Of a DNA stretch of 23,094 bases, positions 8,523 to 23,094 are shown in pieces. Each line of letters begins with the position of its first letter. The first letter of the stretch is position 1. A program made the translations under genes and the position numbers. The stretch is taken from the IMG/VR virus record IMGVR_UViG_3300045999_008022, positions 1 to 23,094 of that record, one strand, 5' to 3'. Under the pieces are notes generated by a model. That model did not search any database and had not been told where the DNA came from. It saw only the letters and a program-made list of their open reading frames with translations. Source of the stretch: a virus.

Positions 8523-9083
8523 TTATCTATCAGGGTTTGGTGGGGACTCGAAGAATGGTTTTGAAGAGTCGCTTTTCCCGGATGGGGCCTCAATCGGAAC
8601 CCATGCACGAGCATAATTGTGTTCTTTTATTTTTCTAACTTTAATTAGGCTGCTGTCAAGCATTAATGATAATTCATCAGACTTCATGCACAAGAGGTCA
8701 TCAAAATCTTGATTTGTATAACGCCCTGACCTTTTCATCTCCCTAATTATCTTCGACATCTTTGCTGCAACGATTACCGACTTACCACGGTTTAGTTGCA
8801 TGTGCATCATCATTGCTTCAATCTTGTCGCAGTCATGAAATACGACTGGTATCAATTCTCCATGGATTTCAGATATTTCTTCAATATTTATTAAAAGTTT
8901 ATATCTTTCTGAGCCGTCTATTATCTCTCCAGTTTCCCTTCGTGCATGAATAGGTTGGATGAAACCATGCTGCATAAGGGATGCAGATATTAAAAGCAGT
9001 TCTGGTCTAAGCGTATAAGTGGATTTCCACTCTGGAACAATTAGTTTTTCTTTTGTTACCCAATCAATTTTTATATCTTTCAC
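8523..9083 (-). CDS. ParB/Srx-fold protein, second copy in operon
   Basis: A 186-residue protein with a degenerate ParB/sulfiredoxin-like fold. It shows a His-Gly-Phe-Ile-Gln-Pro-Ile segment at residues 39-45 and Ile-Ile-Asp-Gly-Ser-Glu-Arg-Tyr at 54-61, the equivalent of the nucleotide-binding DGxxRY/GxHR box. The C-terminal half is helical and ends in a Ser/Pro-rich tail. It starts at GTG 9083, overlapping the previous stop by four bases (GTGA), so its translation is probably coupled to the PP-loop enzyme. It is clearly different in sequence from the first ParB-like protein (10204-11031). In phages such proteins accompany DNA modification or transcription control; the specific role is unknown. 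Confidence 0.65.
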   Translation of the reverse strand: MKDIKIDWVTKEKLIVPEWKSTYTLRPELLLISASLMQHGFIQPIHARRETGEIIDGSERYKLLINIEEISEIHGELIPVVFHDCDKIEAMMMHMQLNRGKSVIVAAKMSKIIREMKRSGRYTNQDFDDLLCMKSDELSLMLDSSLIKVRKIKEHNYARAWVPIEAPSGKSDSSKPFFESPPNPDR

Positions 9084-10207
9084 AATTCTGTTTCACTTTC
9101 AAGAATTCTTACTGCATTTGCTTTTGTTTTCGGTCCAACTGGAGTTGGTGAGTTGACGTCTATTTCATTTAACATCAAGTTTCTTATCAACCAACTTACC
9201 GGGTATCCATATGGGTCTTGAAGATGTTTTTTTCTAAACTTTGAAACATATACGCGTGCTTCCATTTTTCTTCTGTCCCCAACAAGATATTCATCGATGA
9301 ATTCAGAGGCACCATCAAACCCTCGACCAGAGTATCTAGCTATAAGGCTTTCGCTATCAAATTCTGGCCACCATCTTCTTTGCGCATCTATGAATGGAAA
9401 GCACTCCCATAGCCTGTCATAGAATTCTGGCTCAGTTGCTATTACGTCACCAATTCTTCTTATTGCTGTTGCGTGGAGCGGTATACCAACTCTCGTGTTG
9501 CTCCCTGTTGCTACAGCCAAGTCGTAGTACTCACAATATTCGGCATTGTGTTCTTCTATTATGAACTTGAATACGTCGTTGGTGTTCCAGTCATAAATGA
9601 CTTTTGCGAATTTGAGCGGTATCCCAGCTTTTAGTTTGTACGGGGTATTTATGTAATTTTCATGTAATTTCTGAACTACAGAGCGATATCTAACCATTGA
9701 TTCACTCGCTCGAACACCTGTTAGGAAAGCAACATTCCCCTTCTTGCCCTGCATTGTGTAGTAGTCAGTTTGCTCCGGCAGCGAACTATCGTGAGAAAGA
9801 CCAAAATCATTTGCATTAATTGCAAACTCTGGCATGTCCCTTAGCCACCTATTCTGTTCTCCACGCTGCTGACTCCAAAGAACCGTTGTTAAACGATAGC
9901 CAAGAACCCAAATTTCCGCTGGGTATGGGAGGCAGTACCACTCCATATCAACCCAGTCATAATTGCGAACTTTTTCAACATACTCAACGACACTTGGGCT
10001 GACCATTTCCTCATCTCGAAAAATGACTTTTACTGGCCCAAGATTTCTTTCTTCGTGCACTTCTTTTGCAAGATATAGAACTGCAGTTGAGTCTTTTCCC
10101 CCAGAGAACTGCACGCAGACAGTGTCAAACTGGTCGTAAACATGCCTGATTCTTTGGCGTGCAGCCTCCACGCAAGACATATCGAGAAATAGGCGCTGTC
10201 TCGTCAT
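9080..10207 (-). CDS. PP-loop ATP pyrophosphatase, PAPS reductase-like (DUF3440/IbrA-like)
   Basis: A 375-residue enzyme with the PP-loop motif Ser-Gly-Gly-Lys-Asp-Ser at residues 35-40 and the second family block Leu-Thr-Gly-Val-Arg-Ala-Ser-Glu-Ser near 162-170. These are typical of the PAPS reductase/DndC superfamily, which uses ATP to activate a substrate by adenylation and is often involved in sulfur chemistry. The C-terminal 150 residues (Trp/Tyr/Arg-rich) resemble the DUF3440 type seen in IbrA. The start overlaps the ParB-like stop as ATGA (10204-10207), and the end overlaps the second ParB-like gene. The pairing with a ParB-like partner recalls E. coli IbrA/IbrB. Substrate and product are unknown; phosphorothioate-type nucleic acid modification is one possibility. 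Confidence 0.82.
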   Translation of the reverse strand: MTRQRLFLDMSCVEAARQRIRHVYDQFDTVCVQFSGGKDSTAVLYLAKEVHEERNLGPVKVIFRDEEMVSPSVVEYVEKVRNYDWVDMEWYCLPYPAEIWVLGYRLTTVLWSQQRGEQNRWLRDMPEFAINANDFGLSHDSSLPEQTDYYTMQGKKGNVAFLTGVRASESMVRYRSVVQKLHENYINTPYKLKAGIPLKFAKVIYDWNTNDVFKFIIEEHNAEYCEYYDLAVATGSNTRVGIPLHATAIRRIGDVIATEPEFYDRLWECFPFIDAQRRWWPEFDSESLIARYSGRGFDGASEFIDEYLVGDRRKMEARVYVSKFRKKHLQDPYGYPVSWLIRNLMLNEIDVNSPTPVGPKTKANAVRILESETEL

Positions 10208-11031
10208 GGTGTGTGCTCTGAGATAAAAGAAATCAACTTCTCTGCAACCGTGTCACCTTCTAGCCCGGCATCCGAACGCAGCCACTTTATGAACGTGTAC
10301 CATTCTGCCTGTTGCTGGGTGTTGTCAAAAACAATCGTGTACTGAACAACGGCTTGTGGCGCAGAGCGAGGAGATACGGTTGTCGAGCCCCTGACTACAG
10401 CGTCGTTCTGGTCAATCCCTGGTCTGATATTTATCTGCTGATTTCCCTCTTTATCCTTGGTAATTGAGACAGCATTCATATCCATTGAGGTATCTTTTAT
10501 TTTTGTCTCCTGGAATTTTTCATACTCTTCTTCCGCTTCTGAATCCTCCACCATCACCGGGGGAGTGTAAGAACCACTTCCAACAACTTGATATTCATCT
10601 CTAATTGATGTCTGTTCGAATTCTGCAATCTCGAATTCATCCCATCCAAGACTGTCAACAAGCTCTGGGTATTCTTCGTGAATTTCAAGGATGAACTCAC
10701 TCAGTAGTTCTGATTCCGTGTAACCGAGCTCCATGGTTCTGTTGTCGGCAATCGCAAATGCAATTGCCTTCTTGTTGTCAACGTCATAGCTAACTGCTGC
10801 TATCTTGTCCCACCCAAGAAGTTTTGCTGCTTCTAACTGGTGATTACCTGCAATAACGGTTGATGTTCCATCATCGTTTGGGCGAATAACAATTGGCTTT
10901 ATCTGTCCAAATTCTCTGTATGAAGCCACGATTGACTGGACGTTACCTTTTCTCGGGTTTCCCTCAAGTGGAACTAGTTTGTCTACATCAACCGCAAGTT
11001 GCTTTAATGATTCGTGAATTTTGTTTGACAT
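10204..11031 (-). CDS. ParB/Srx-fold protein (IbrB-like partner)
   Basis: A 275-residue protein. The N-terminal 75 residues form a ParB/sulfiredoxin-like domain: Gly-Asn-Pro-Arg at 24-27, Phe-Gly-Gln-Ile-Lys-Pro-Ile at 41-47 and Val-Ile-Ala-Gly-Asn-His-Gln-Leu at 59-66. An Ala-Asp-Asn-Arg-Thr helical region follows (about 93-120), then an acidic linker (160-180) and a distinct C-terminal domain with Trp-Tyr-Thr-Phe-Ile-Lys-Trp. It lacks the HTH and C-terminal dimer parts of chromosomal ParB. It is coupled to the PP-loop enzyme by an ATGA overlap, the same pairing as IbrB/IbrA. Roles proposed for such pairs include gene regulation and DNA modification; which applies here is not visible. Confidence 0.78.
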   Translation of the reverse strand: MSNKIHESLKQLAVDVDKLVPLEGNPRKGNVQSIVASYREFGQIKPIVIRPNDDGTSTVIAGNHQLEAAKLLGWDKIAAVSYDVDNKKAIAFAIADNRTMELGYTESELLSEFILEIHEEYPELVDSLGWDEFEIAEFEQTSIRDEYQVVGSGSYTPPVMVEDSEAEEEYEKFQETKIKDTSMDMNAVSITKDKEGNQQINIRPGIDQNDAVVRGSTTVSPRSAPQAVVQYTIVFDNTQQQAEWYTFIKWLRSDAGLEGDTVAEKLISFISEHTP

Positions 11032-14641: not shown

Positions 14642-15133
14642 TTATTTTGCTTTGCGTACAATAATGCTTGTCTTAAGGTCGCCAACCTCACAATAATTGT
14701 CGGGATTAATCCCAATTTTATTGAGTTCTTTTACTCTCCAGTAGGACGGAGCGCAATATGTGAGCATATCCAGCGCAATGTCATATGGTGATTTTGTCAC
14801 TTCGCCAGTGTCCATGTCAACAGACATCTTTATTAATTTGTCTGCAACAGCAGAACCAAGGTCCTTGTGCTTCCAGCCCTTGCGTTCGTAAGATGATGTC
14901 TTTTCAATCTTTACGCCACTTGAAAGATTTACTTCTTGTTCATTGCCAATAATCCTACCCATTGCAAAAGAGTAAGAATCATAAACCATCGCCAAGTCGC
15001 GCTTTAAAAAATTCAATTCTGCCAGCAATTCACAGGCCTCAACCATGTCTGGACCAGAGTCTGTATATTCCATCAATTCGGAATCGAGCTCAGCAACGAG
15101 CTTTTTAATAAGGTCTAATTTCTCATTGTTCAT
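14642..15133 (-). CDS. Conserved phage protein, recombination-linked, function unknown
   Basis: A 163-residue protein with an N-terminal coiled-coil half and a C-terminal half holding Arg-Lys-Gly-Trp-Lys-His-Lys-Asp-Leu, a Val-Asp-x-Asp-Thr-Gly-Glu-Val-Thr segment, and Pro-Ser-Tyr-Trp-Arg-Val-Lys near the end. I recall this combination from a family that sits beside annealing protein and exonuclease genes in actinobacteriophages. It contains an LSSG tetrapeptide at residues 70-73, but in a conserved loop without the usual preceding Ser/Ala, so I treat that as chance. ATG 15133 has AAGGAAT upstream. Function is not known to me. Confidence 0.68.
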   Translation of the reverse strand: MNNEKLDLIKKLVAELDSELMEYTDSGPDMVEACELLAELNFLKRDLAMVYDSYSFAMGRIIGNEQEVNLSSGVKIEKTSSYERKGWKHKDLGSAVADKLIKMSVDMDTGEVTKSPYDIALDMLTYCAPSYWRVKELNKIGINPDNYCEVGDLKTSIIVRKAK

Positions 15134-18806: not shown

Positions 18807-18914
18807 TTTCACTAAACAATTTCTGTAAAAGATTTGATTTAAGCAAATACTTGCATTCTGTAGCTGTTTTCTCGTTTATTATCGACTAGCAACCGAGAGA
18901 AGTTGGTTTGGAAA
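18807..18914 (+). promoter_or_regulatory. Intergenic region before protease, possible promoter
   Basis: This 108-base AT-rich gap separates portal and protease. TATTAT follows TTGCAT by 20 bases, a poor but possible promoter. GAGAGAAG and GGAAA upstream of ATG 18915 could serve as ribosome-binding sites, the second being close to the start. No terminator hairpin was found. Readthrough from the portal operon is equally likely. Confidence 0.25.
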
Positions 18915-21900
18915 ATGTCAAAAGAAACATTCGAGTATAAGACCACATCGGTATCAGGCTCCCAGCAGATTAAGGGTGCTGTAGGCCTGGATGAGATGCA
19001 GGGCATTGTCGAGTGTTTCGTTGCGGGAATTGGTAATAAAGACTCTGTTGGCGACGTTTGCGCCTCGGGGGCATTCACAAAGAGTCTTCTCCGCCGCAAA
19101 CCGAGAGTTGTTTGGGGCCACAACTGGAATGACCCAATCGGCAAAGTGCTTGAAATTTACGAAGTTGGCCCACAGGACCCACGCCTTCCAATGAAGATGA
19201 AAATCGCCGGAATTGGCGGTCTTTTTGCAAAAGTTCAATTCAATCTTCAGTCAGAAAAAGGCAAAGAAGCATTTGCAAACGTGGCCTTCTTTGGAGAAGA
19301 ACAAGAGTGGTCAATCGGGTACAAGACGCTAAGAGCTCAATTCGACCAGAAGTCACAAGCAAACATTCTTTACGAAGTTGAGCTTTATGAAGTAAGCCCT
19401 GTTCTGCATGGGGCAAACCAGTTAACTGGAACAATCTCGGTCAAGGGTGATGACTCATCGTACGGTAATCCTGTCATGGTGATGCCGGAGCAAGATGAGC
19501 GCAACGGGTACGAAGAGATGGAGAAGGAGCTGTCAAGACTTTTTAATGCCAAAGTCTCAGTTCATTCAATAGATGGCGATGAAGTTGTCTTCACCAGACA
19601 CGAAATGTCCGGAGCGAAAAAGTACAAGTGTGGATTCATGAGAAATCATGGAAGATACATGTTCGGAACACCTGAGATGATTTCTGTTCCGCAGAATCCT
19701 CAGGCAGCTCCAATGCCAGTTGTTAGCGGTAGACCGACTCCACCAAATGAACCACAAAGAATTGTCAGACCACAGCAAATGCCATCCATACCTGTCGCTG
19801 TTAAGCCAGGCGACAATGGAGTTGTGATGATTCCACTCCCTTCAGTCCAATATGACGCTTCGCCAAAAATGAGCCTCGACAAAGAAGAAGCAGACCTGCG
19901 TGATGCTCTTCTTAAAATCGTTGCACGCCACGGAAAATTTAACGAGGATTCAAATGGAGTTTGGGCTGGCTACTACCCTCCTGCTGAAAATCCAGTTGCC
20001 AGAATTGGTGTCAAGTGCGCTAATTGCGTGTTTTATAAAGGCGGGTCAAACTGCAAGATAATTGACATGCCTGTAGAACCAGAAGGCAAGTGCAGATTTG
20101 CTGTCATCCCGAATGGCGTTGTATTGAGCAGTGGCTCAAAAGAACTTGAGGAACACGCTTCAGAAGCAGAAGATGCAATCATGGAAACGCTTGAGCTCAA
20201 GTATCCAGGGGAGTTTGTTCTCGGTGTGCTACGAAATGCCGTCGGCAAACGAAAGAAGAGAAGAAAGAAGTACAAGAATCTCGCCGAATTTGGCGACGAG
20301 GACGATATGGGCGAGAAGTCCTACCTCATTCCTGTCGAAACAGATTTTGCATTTAGTGTAAAGACCGCACTAGACCCAGTATTCGATTACTACAGAGCAG
20401 AAACATTTGTTGACAAAGAGGGAATAGTAATAACCTCTGGAGTTACTGAAGATTTGATAGATGCAGTCGATACGGCTCTCTACAACTTAAAAAAAAAATT
20501 TCCAAATCATGAAATAGAGGGTAAATCCCTCGGCTACAGAATTGGCCGTTCGCTTGCATCAAGAGCAATTGATAGACCAAGCATTGGTGGCAAAAGGCGT
20601 GGTGGCCGTGGATTCGGCATGCCAGAGGGCGACCTGGACCCACGAACAAGAGTAGACAAAAACAGAGACGGAACACTCTTTGACAACATTCCTGGTTGGG
20701 AACAACCAGACCCAACACCAGATGGTCCTGGCTCGATAAACAACCCAAAACTTTCTTCCGCACAAAGAAGAGACGTTGCCAGTATTCCTGGTGAAGGTGA
20801 AAAAACAAAACCAGCAGATGGTGAAATAATAAAGAGCCGTAAACCAAAGTACACGGCCGACGACCTTGGTGAAATTCTTGGAGAAAAGAAGAAGCCCGCG
20901 AAGAAGGCTGTAGCCAAAAAGGCTCCTGTTAAAAAAGAAAAAGTAAAACGAGGAGAACTAGATTTCGCTAAGGGTCCTAAAAAGGATAAGACGCCTTCAC
21001 TTTCATCTGGTGAAAGCGACAAGAGACTCACTCGCCACTCGGGAGACCCAAAATTTGAATCACTTGTTTCTCCAGAAGAACTAGAGAAGCGCAAGAAATT
21101 CGAAGAAGTAATTAAAGACTGGAAAGATTCCGGTTATGGCTGGACAGATGTACCTAGGTATAAGCCAGATGCTTACAGGTCGCCTGACTATCTGCGCGGA
21201 AGAGAGATGGGTGTCAATCAAGCCAGGGTGATGTGGCTTGGAGATAAAACCAATCCAAGACCAGCCAAATTCGAAGATAAAAATACGTCTTCTGTTGCCT
21301 ACAGGGATTGGTACTCAGGGATGGTTATGCGTGCCGGCACCTTCCTTGATGCATCACGTGGTGATGACAACGAATTCTACAACGGCATGGAAGATGCAAT
21401 ACATGAATTCATGTACAACAACAGACCTGATGCAACTGGGTTCAGGGGTATTGGCCCAGATGGGAAAGACGGTCTATCCGACTGGATGCGTCAATATGGT
21501 TTCGACTCATTATCGCCAACTCCATTAAGAAAGAAAAAAGAAGGAAAAAAGAGAAGTTCACTCTCCCTCTCTTCTGGCGCAGACGACGATACAAGACCAA
21601 ATTTCGACGAAGAAAATTATGAGAGCGACACGAATGTAGATTTCTACGACACCATTCTTGACATGATGGGTCCAGAAGATGACCGACCAAAGGTTTCTTC
21701 TCGCAAGAAACAAATGAGCGATGAAGAGATTTATCGCAAGAGAACGACAACTGGAGCTTCCCTGCAGGATGTTGCAGAAGAGCTCGGTCTGACGAGAATG
21801 GAAGTCAGAAAGCGCGAGCAGCGTCACATGCGCAAAATGCGTAAAGACAAAGAGGGCGTTTCGCTCTCTTCTGGTGCAAAGAACGAGTGGGCCACTTCGC

Positions 21901-23094
21901 GTGGGTATGAGCCTGACAGATTTGACCTTCGTGAGGCAACAAACCAAATAGGTCGCGGAAACATCATGGCCATCTCTGGCGGTCGTGTTGAGCGCAGAGG
22001 AAACGAGATGGTTCTTCCTTCAACAAAGGACCAGCAAGTCGTTATCGGTTATAACTCCGTCCCAGACCTCTACTACGTCAGAGCTGAACAAAAAATCAAT
22101 ACAGGTAAAGACAAGGGCAAAAACAGAATTCTTGCTCAGTGGGATGAAGTTTATGCTGACGAACTTGGCGAACTTGCATATCAAGCAAGTCTCAAGCCAG
22201 CAAATCTGAATAACGAGAACAAAGAGTACTGGAAGCTTGGTAAGGGGAATCAATTCGCTGACAGAATTGTTGACAGGAGAAACGGAAAACTCGTAGATAG
22301 AGATTCAGAGAATCTCCCATCTGCACCATCGAAAGATGAAACTCCTTCGCTGTCTTCTGGTGGACGGGGTCGTGATTATTACAACTACGACATTGAAACA
22401 AGCGATGATGGAAACAACCTTCTTGACCAAATCCACGATGCACTAGAAGAGAACCCACTTATCAAGGATGACATAACTGCCGATATAGCGGACATGCTTG
22501 GTGGGGATGGAATAGTTGAAGCCAATGGTTTTGACACGCAAAAGGCTTTTAATCTTGTAACTGGAAGCGATGATGAGTTCCAGGACTACATGGACATCGT
22601 TGACGATGCAATGGACGCACTGGAAAACGGCTCTCTTGCAAAACACAAAGCAACAGTGCGTGATGCGAACGTAAGACTCGATTCAGCAAAGCCTGGAAGT
22701 AATGAAGCAGGGAAGCTTGAAGCACTTCGCGACAGGTCGTATGAGTGGATTGGTGACATCAACAAGTATTCACGTGTTTCTACAATTAAAGACAAGAAGA
22801 ATATTGAAGCCAGTGACGTAGCAACACGAATGATTTCCAAGGAGCAAGACGCACTCTGGAACGCCCGTTCTGCAATAACTGAAAAATACATAGAAGACGT
22901 TGTTTCTGCTAAAAAAGAATCTAAGCGCCGAGTGCCAATTGATGAAATTGATTCCAATACTGACGATGTCCCTGATTATGATTTAGCGCTTTCTTCTGGA
23001 AGCGTAATGAAGGATGGTCCACTGTCCAATACCCTTGCATCAAAGGAAGAAGGAGCCACCCTCTCCTCCAGTGAGCTGCAAGATATTTTCTCTT
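18915..23094 (+). CDS. Prohead protease fused to giant extension with LSSG motifs, C-terminus beyond right edge
   Basis: The frame is open from ATG 18915 to the window end, 1393 residues so far. Residues 25-170 are an HK97-type (U35) maturation protease with His69 in Trp-Gly-His-Asn-Trp, Ser133 in Trp-Ser-Ile-Gly-Tyr, and Glu159 in Tyr-Glu-Val-Ser-Pro. A Pro-rich linker follows (about 245-310), then a four-Cys domain at 368-393. Usual U35 proteins are about 200-250 residues, so the extension is exceptional. It contains LSSG at 404, 696, 885, 984, 1146 and 1359, plus LSSA at 613 and LSSS at 1383. A Lys-rich linker lies at 650-690 and a helix-turn-helix at 949-975. I infer a self-cleaving polyprotein that yields several virion proteins. 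The rest resembles no family I know. Confidence 0.85.
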   Translation, partial: MSKETFEYKTTSVSGSQQIKGAVGLDEMQGIVECFVAGIGNKDSVGDVCASGAFTKSLLRRKPRVVWGHNWNDPIGKVLEIYEVGPQDPRLPMKMKIAGIGGLFAKVQFNLQSEKGKEAFANVAFFGEEQEWSIGYKTLRAQFDQKSQANILYEVELYEVSPVLHGANQLTGTISVKGDDSSYGNPVMVMPEQDERNGYEEMEKELSRLFNAKVSVHSIDGDEVVFTRHEMSGAKKYKCGFMRNHGRYMFGTPEMISVPQNPQAAPMPVVSGRPTPPNEPQRIVRPQQMPSIPVAVKPGDNGVVMIPLPSVQYDASPKMSLDKEEADLRDALLKIVARHGKFNEDSNGVWAGYYPPAENPVARIGVKCANCVFYKGGSNCKIIDMPVEPEGKCRFAVIPNGVVLSSGSKELEEHASEAEDAIMETLELKYPGEFVLGVLRNAVGKRKKRRKKYKNLAEFGDEDDMGEKSYLIPVETDFAFSVKTALDPVFDYYRAETFVDKEGIVITSGVTEDLIDAVDTALYNLKKKFPNHEIEGKSLGYRIGRSLASRAIDRPSIGGKRRGGRGFGMPEGDLDPRTRVDKNRDGTLFDNIPGWEQPDPTPDGPGSINNPKLSSAQRRDVASIPGEGEKTKPADGEIIKSRKPKYTADDLGEILGEKKKPAKKAVAKKAPVKKEKVKRGELDFAKGPKKDKTPSLSSGESDKRLTRHSGDPKFESLVSPEELEKRKKFEEVIKDWKDSGYGWTDVPRYKPDAYRSPDYLRGREMGVNQARVMWLGDKTNPRPAKFEDKNTSSVAYRDWYSGMVMRAGTFLDASRGDDNEFYNGMEDAIHEFMYNNRPDATGFRGIGPDGKDGLSDWMRQYGFDSLSPTPLRKKKEGKKRSSLSLSSGADDDTRPNFDEENYESDTNVDFYDTILDMMGPEDDRPKVSSRKKQMSDEEIYRKRTTTGASLQDVAEELGLTRMEVRKREQRHMRKMRKDKEGVSLSSGAKNEWATSRGYEPDRFDLREATNQIGRGNIMAISGGRVERRGNEMVLPSTKDQQVVIGYNSVPDLYYVRAEQKINTGKDKGKNRILAQWDEVYADELGELAYQASLKPANLNNENKEYWKLGKGNQFADRIVDRRNGKLVDRDSENLPSAPSKDETPSLSSGGRGRDYYNYDIETSDDGNNLLDQIHDALEENPLIKDDITADIADMLGGDGIVEANGFDTQKAFNLVTGSDDEFQDYMDIVDDAMDALENGSLAKHKATVRDANVRLDSAKPGSNEAGKLEALRDRSYEWIGDINKYSRVSTIKDKKNIEASDVATRMISKEQDALWNARSAITEKYIEDVVSAKKESKRRVPIDEIDSNTDDVPDYDLALSSGSVMKDGPLSNTLASKEEGATLSSSELQDIFS
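20016..20093 (+). other. Four-cysteine domain in protease fusion
   Basis: Cys368, Cys371, Cys380 and Cys393 are spaced C-x2-C-x8-C-x12-C, followed by Arg-Phe-Ala-Val-Ile-Pro. The spacing could bind zinc, or a [4Fe-4S] cluster as in high-potential iron-sulfur proteins, whose spacings are usually longer. It lies directly before the first LSSG (404), so it would end up on the protease-side fragment after cleavage. Confidence 0.5.
20124..23072 (+). repeat. Series of LSSG motifs, putative self-cleavage sites
   Basis: Exact Leu-Ser-Ser-Gly copies lie at 20124-20135, 21000-21011, 21567-21578, 21864-21875, 22350-22361 and 22989-23000. Near copies lie at 20751-20762 (LSSA) and 23061-23072 (LSSS). The residue before is Ser, Ala, Val, Lys or Thr, and the one after is usually Ala, Gly, Ser or Glu. 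Codons differ between copies, for example TTG-AGC-AGT-GGC against CTC-TCT-TCT-GGT, so this is a protein-level repeat. Spacing is uneven (24 to 213 residues), fitting boundaries between domains and not tandem duplication. Confidence 0.6.
21759..21839 (+). other. Helix-turn-helix segment inside protease fusion
   Basis: Residues 949-975 read as a helix-turn-helix: Ser-Leu-Gln-Asp-Val-Ala-Glu-Glu-Leu-Gly-Leu-Thr as the first helix and turn, then Arg-Met-Glu-Val-Arg-Lys-Arg-Glu-Gln as the recognition helix, followed by a very basic stretch. The pattern resembles sigma-70 region 4 or similar domains. It lies between the LSSG motifs at 885 and 984 and so would be released as a fragment of about 99 residues. 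Confidence 0.5.

Follow-up and report, generated by a model that had tools for sequence, protein, structure and literature searches.

A giant open reading frame (ORF) with an HK97-type prohead protease at its start, dotted with the short motif LSSG, was found in the window, the whole 23,094-nucleotide stretch of viral DNA analyzed here, whose own record is a 23-kb fragment. We consider it quite probable that the HK97-type prohead protease encoded by the phage itself recognizes LSSG as its site, and that three giant polyproteins bearing the motif are made up of packaged and injected proteins. The cleavage itself, the protease responsible, and the bond that is cut are steps that we infer, as are packaging and injection, for which gene position and domain content are the grounds. 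A wider claim, favored with less assurance, is that of a polyprotein system common to a widespread clade of aquatic tailed phages, in which one fused protease, three polyproteins and the tape-measure protein, a lineage-specific [LF]-x-S site co-evolving with the protease, and a plug-in array of effectors, with modules acquired or dropped at motif borders, belong together. The group appears to consist mostly of freshwater bacterial viruses that make many of their head-packaged proteins as a few giant motif-dotted chains. A preliminary description of the window had already read LSSG as a cleavage signal; conservation, movable modules, and co-variation all support that reading, while its single gene, its sole spelling of the motif, and its suggestion of LSSG in the capsid protein have had to be amended as described below.

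The ORF, termed polyprotein 1, occupies positions 18915 to 23093 of the plus strand (with a possible start at 18903 or 18915) and is still open at its 3' end, where the contig stops; the end at 23072 given previously is therefore not the end of the ORF. Its first 586 nucleotides (18915 to 19500) encode a domain that, judged by profile, catalytic residues, and gene position, belongs to the HK97-type prohead proteases (PF04586, MEROPS S78/U35). Two orthologues match PF04586 with E-values of 7.5e-11 and 3.4e-09, and the head maturation protease family of phrog is matched at E=1e-10. The predicted catalytic residues, numbered from the ATG at 18915, are His69 in VWGHNW, Ser133 in EWSIGY, and Glu159 in YEVSPV. 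The H of WGHN, S of EWSIGY, and E of YEVSP align with their counterparts in Gordonia phage proteases, and only a poorly aligned stretch of phage DSL-LC01 departs from this pattern. The gene lies between the portal and capsid genes, as in the HK97-type family: the 689-residue ORF upstream is taken for a portal protein by its position and sequence, and a PF05065 capsid protein is encoded downstream in 14 of 16 contigs.

The protease is followed in the same frame by six exact LSSG motifs and two near copies, as had been reported. Ahead of them lies a conserved Cys-rich domain (CANC...C...GKCRF, 20010 to 20099) that is common to the Actinomycetia phage DSL-LC01. In that phage, its counterpart (55% identity) forms the end of a separate protein (L080:12001-12285), and a neighboring gene is annotated as a high potential iron-sulfur protein. 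LSSG site 1 (20124 to 20135) is restricted to the window clade in comparisons of homologues, so not every copy is old. Between 20526 and 20720 is a tag, SRxxDRPxIGG...DLDPRTRxDxNxDGTxFD..WEQPDPTP, that recurs near the N-terminus of another giant chain, polyprotein 3, with 65% identity over 55 residues, and the near copy LSSA (20751 to 20762) follows shortly after. Both the position of the tag and the site after it resemble those of capsid-targeting sequences, and by this analogy the tag probably targets polyproteins 1 and 3 to the prohead. Site 2 (21000 to 21011) is followed by module c7 (21012 to 21566), which is predicted to be folded, site 3 (21567 to 21578), and module c5 (21579 to 21863), in which a sigma-70 region 4-like helix-turn-helix is predicted at 21759-21842 from matches of relatives to PF04545. 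Site 4 (21864 to 21875) precedes module c12 (21876 to 22349), delimited by clustering and the structure model, and site 5 (22350 to 22361) precedes the mostly helical (as predicted) module c13 (22362 to 22988). After site 6 (22989 to 23000), the near copy LSSS (23061 to 23072) corresponds to an LSSG in similar context in a close relative, L001. All six exact sites fall in stretches of an AlphaFold model with pLDDT below 50 between better-predicted segments (chance about 1%), in a model that is weak overall (mean pLDDT 53). This agrees with the earlier placement of the motifs at segment borders, and the low-confidence stretches are presumably disordered linkers. One further LSSG in the window, at 14915-14926, lies outside both the giant ORF and the tape-measure gene and is probably a chance occurrence.

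The six copies are spelled by six different DNA words, in line with the varying codons noted before, and thus do not form a DNA repeat. In 20,000 shuffles of the extension, LSSG occurred 0.034 times on average and twice at most, against the six copies observed. Over 20 distinct ORF1 and 13 ORF3 proteins, 181 copies were counted where 2.8 are expected from composition, a 64-fold enrichment, while the other head genes hold 1 against 1.45 expected. Single-change variants are also enriched (FSSG 19-fold, MSSG 8-fold, LASG 5.6-fold, and the rare LCSG), whereas altering the third or fourth residue gives next to no enrichment. When homologues (mean identity about 40%) are aligned, the match to the LSSG-bearing row is, residue by residue across the motif, 0.69, 0.69, 0.75, and 0.85, compared with values of mostly 0.25-0.35 in the flanks. 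Since background conservation is 0.46 for L, 0.32 for S, and 0.57 for G, all four residues exceed their own background. Loss of the motif with retention of its flanks, which had been named as evidence against cleavage, is the opposite of this pattern. The profile comes from a MAFFT alignment, in which identical words can be pulled together; the enrichment and the co-variation described below are independent of alignment. Within six proteins, only 2 of 57 sites fall inside domain matches, where 8.0 are expected.

Relatives were collected in a scan of viral contigs, which returned 311 related stretches, and 79 loci were kept. In contigs 99% identical to the window, polyprotein 1 has 3,639 residues and 11 LSSG motifs. 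Complete versions range from 2,899 to 3,723 residues with 0 to 16 copies, truncated ones can be longer, and one lineage has only four recognizable sites in this ORF. Downstream lies a scaffold-like ORF that is acidic and bears Cys; a second giant ORF and then some five smaller genes separate it from the capsid gene (PF05065). The scaffold-like ORF (L096:749-2422 and equivalents) has a strongly acidic middle together with conserved Cys-bearing segments, which is unusual for a scaffold. Polyprotein 2, located between the scaffold and capsid genes, is 2,076-2,918 residues long and bears the motif, as does polyprotein 3 (1.2-5.3 kaa), which lies beyond the capsid gene and was present with 2-14 motifs in all ten contigs examined in that region. 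A 170-kb contig, G001, has LSSG in its three giant ORFs and one copy elsewhere, and here some 15 kb separate polyprotein 3 from the capsid gene. The tape-measure protein carries the motif as well. On the minus strand of the window, it is encoded at 614 to 625 (near residue 590) and, again as an exact match, at 575 to 586. All ten tested tape-measure loci have [LFM][SA]SG at the former position and seven of the ten have a site near residue 41; eight of these loci together hold 19 sites where 1.75 are expected. The earlier proposal that one gene delivers several proteins thus stands as far as the multi-module chain is concerned, but the system comprises three giant ORFs and the tape-measure protein.

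The major capsid protein had been suggested as a further place to look for LSSG, and none was found in the capsid genes of relatives. What these proteins (L082-L108 genes) do have is L[ST]S[RHS]E, conserved at the end of the N-terminal coiled region just before KSIGQMF. In capsid proteins of the HK97 type, the delta domain is usually removed at the end of this coiled region, and L[ST]S[RHS]E is a candidate for the delta-domain cut site. Its L[ST]S[RHS] core keeps the L in the lineage that spells the motif FSSG.

Modules were defined by splitting the chains at each motif and grouping the resulting fragments by clustering. The recurring units are c1 (protease and tag), c7, c5 (sigma-region-4-like), c2 (ArdC-N and MPTase), c3 (UvrD-like helicase), and the C-terminal c4, alongside many that are lineage-specific. 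The motif-bounded modules come and go between homologues and change their order. One such unit, of about 85 residues, occurs in L004 and L011; the window lacks precisely this motif-to-motif stretch, at site 2. L073 and L064 have their units in a different order. Pfam matches to ArdcN, MPTase-PolyVal (E=9.1e-39), UvrD, and Sigma70_r4 all occur within the single polyprotein 1 ORF of relatives. Polyprotein 2 has a head-morphogenesis match and polyprotein 3 a DEDD-type exonuclease match, with GNAT matches in a relative. By eye, a KTSC-like insert was identified in polyprotein 1 of L004, and ART-like and zincin-like (HEWGHW) segments in a polyprotein 3 (L121:5058-12857). The predicted presence of several motif-bounded enzyme modules fits a role as injected proteins.

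The spelling of the motif drifts in concert across genes. In contig G008, of the FSSG lineage, the first motif position is F at 19 of 26 sites, compared with 7 of 165 elsewhere (Fisher p=4.6e-15, with sites counted as independent, which overstates the precision of this and the following tests). The change is spread over polyprotein 1 (4/4), polyprotein 2 (3/5), polyprotein 3 (9/14), and the tape-measure protein (3/3). Likewise, the window clade has Ser immediately ahead of the motif where the other lineages have Arg or Lys, with p=1e-11, 0.002, and 1e-12 for polyproteins 1, 2, and 3. The same spelling change in separate genes of one genome points to one recognizer, and such co-variation is as expected if a single protease acts on all of them. 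More distant relatives extend this picture. A marine contig, L165 (JASLZV010000001.1), encodes a 53% identical protease in an ORF of 2,698 residues that holds no LSSG but eight copies of [LFM]xSR[RNKD], where 0.5 are expected. A second viral-contig scan, started from L165, recovered GLAS (9 copies in L195), GFAS (8 in L220), GFSS, GLRS, and RLSSG (L203). These relatives retain the protease plus extension, with the site written as G[LF]xS or [LF]xSR. What had been described as the signal is therefore a recurring site, as claimed, of which LSSG is one lineage's spelling within a broader [LF]-x-S.

Several other features of these contigs were noted. The protease ORF extensions of L208 and L233 contain many GADL/GANL repeats, possibly pentapeptide-repeat modules. 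A scan of a genome collection returned, besides one weak match, a single marine phage contig, binned in a Phycisphaerae metagenome-assembled genome (MAG); this contig, L165, encodes portal, protease polyprotein, and terminase-like ORFs and is thus probably a misplaced virus contig. The window itself has, at 8523-11031 of the minus strand, three overlapping ORFs in which a PAPS-reductase-like protein (FSGGKDSTAVLYL) lies between two ParB-like ORFs. The combination resembles an IbrA/IbrB-type pair, and a similar ORF is found in L165.

The mechanism that we propose is as follows. The S78 protease at the N-terminus of polyprotein 1 would be packaged and would cut itself free in the prohead; polyprotein 1 would be processed in cis, and the other two polyproteins, like the tape-measure protein, in trans. 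The tag common to polyproteins 1 and 3 would steer these chains to the prohead, as capsid-targeting sequences do in T4. Each cut would free a folded module, such as an ArdC antirestriction module with its metallopeptidase, a UvrD-like helicase, a sigma-region-4-like DNA-binding module, a DEDD exonuclease, GNATs, a MuF-like head protein, and others that are unassigned. By likeness to the [LI]-x-E of T4 and the A-x-E of SPN3US, the cut probably falls after the second Ser (LSS/G), that is, after the [LF]xS core.

Two alternatives concern the identity of the cutter. The zincin-like MPTase-PolyVal module inside polyprotein 1 could itself cut at LSSG, either before packaging or after injection, since it lies in the same ORF, is present in the LSSG/FSSG contigs tested, and belongs to a type for which autoprocessing was proposed by Iyer et al. 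in their treatment of polyvalent proteins (PMC5512222). It was absent from ten contigs of the wider group, including two with lengths of 132 and 118 kb, and present in 3/3 LSSG/FSSG controls. In these two large, motif-bearing contigs with GLAS or GFSS sites, which may be incomplete, the S78 protease is the remaining constant, and we regard the metallopeptidase as an unlikely cutter; the zincin-like HEWGHW segment of polyprotein 3 would be a further possible candidate. Slightly less probable again is that a host protease, or one met after injection, cuts LSSG in the infected cell and that the chains travel intact. The tape-measure protein is a tail part, and a purely in-head protease would not meet its sites; in addition, the N4 virion RNA polymerase is described in PMC5512222 as packaged unprocessed. 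Spellings that are lineage-specific and change in concert within a genome nevertheless speak for a cutter encoded by the phage more than for one from the host, and intact giant chains would be awkward to inject.

Explanations without cleavage were also weighed. Short repeated words can act as docking motifs, and one LSSG per module might be an uncut docking, sorting, or modification signal, bound for example by a packaging protein. Because the sites sit at module junctions in predicted disordered linkers, beside a fused protease whose active site is intact, we give this improbable reading little weight. That the motif reflects chance, low complexity, or recent duplication might be suggested by the few copies in some lineages, but this is refuted by the 64-fold enrichment, the six DNA words, and the conservation peak over unconserved flanks, and has next to no probability. 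Cutting by the S78 protease remains our preferred reading, although LSSG counts of 0-16, the lineage with just four sites in polyprotein 1, the sites in a tail protein, a capsid site that is not LSSG, the lack of a clear recurring motif in the Gordonia phages, and the origin of all polyproteins from uncultured contigs count against it.

Proteolysis of this kind has close parallels. RNA-virus polyproteins, such as those of potyviruses, are cut by their protease in cis and in trans at a short site that recurs between modules. The window phages differ in being dsDNA tailed viruses with a serine protease of the HK97 class, and in that the presumed cutting would serve virion cargo and not the main gene expression. 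T4 gp21, phiKZ gp175, and SPN3US gp245 belong to the prohead-protease/herpesvirus class of serine proteases. Their substrates, numerous head and injected proteins, are cut at short P3-x-P1 sites, [LI]xE in T4 and AxE in SPN3US; T4-type substrates have N-terminal capsid-targeting propeptides, and one of them, IPI, blocks restriction (PMC9026906, PMC10052503). The predicted window system is similar in its short P3-x-P1 site, its many head or injected substrates, and its targeting sequence. In those phages, however, the substrates have separate genes and lose their propeptides, whereas here the cargo is strung in polyproteins, one of them with the protease. The P1 residue is Glu in T4 and SPN3US and presumed to be Ser in the window phages, where the spelling drifts between lineages.

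Polyvalent proteins are large phage proteins that combine ArdC-N, MPTase, helicase, and other conflict domains and are thought to be packaged and injected (Iyer et al. 2017, PMC5512222). Polyprotein 1 resembles them in its combination of ArdC-N/MPTase and conflict domains. For their processing, the passages of that paper dealing with it propose MPTase autoprocessing or assemblin-like peptidases, which some of them carry and which are described as always C-terminal, unlike the N-terminal protease of the window. The same passages give no linker cleavage motif, whereas the window phages have a lineage-specific one at module borders in three genes. Nearer in sequence are the proteases of the contractile-tail Gordonia phages GMA6 and Gray, with a 36-42% identical domain, which are encoded just before the capsid gene but as short separate genes of about 455-485 residues, unlike the giant window ORF. 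No recurring motif stood out in a scan that covered DSL-LC01 and the cultured relatives (Gordonia, Brevibacterium, and Streptomyces). In the open-access literature (thus excluding subscription papers and preprints), we found no recurring cleavage motif, tailed phage with several polyproteins, or lineage-specific spellings described, and no publication linking LSSG with phage cleavage. Among papers that join prohead proteases with polyproteins, only the one on polyvalent proteins was pertinent, as judged by title and abstract. In the passages located in a survey of viral NAD-ADPr systems from 2022, the term 'polyprotein' is applied to RNA viruses only. The earlier remark that no such phage polyprotein had been described holds within this literature. 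By analogy, then, the layout reads as T4-type head processing joined to polyvalent proteins, in a polyprotein arrangement without known description.

If the proposal is correct, tailed phages would have a polyprotein strategy of their own, comparable to that of RNA viruses. The cut sites would parse injected proteins that are as yet unknown, so that each stretch between motifs would become a candidate effector delivered at infection. The lineages would also amount to a natural panel of prohead proteases, each paired with its own substrate site, on which site choice could be tested directly.
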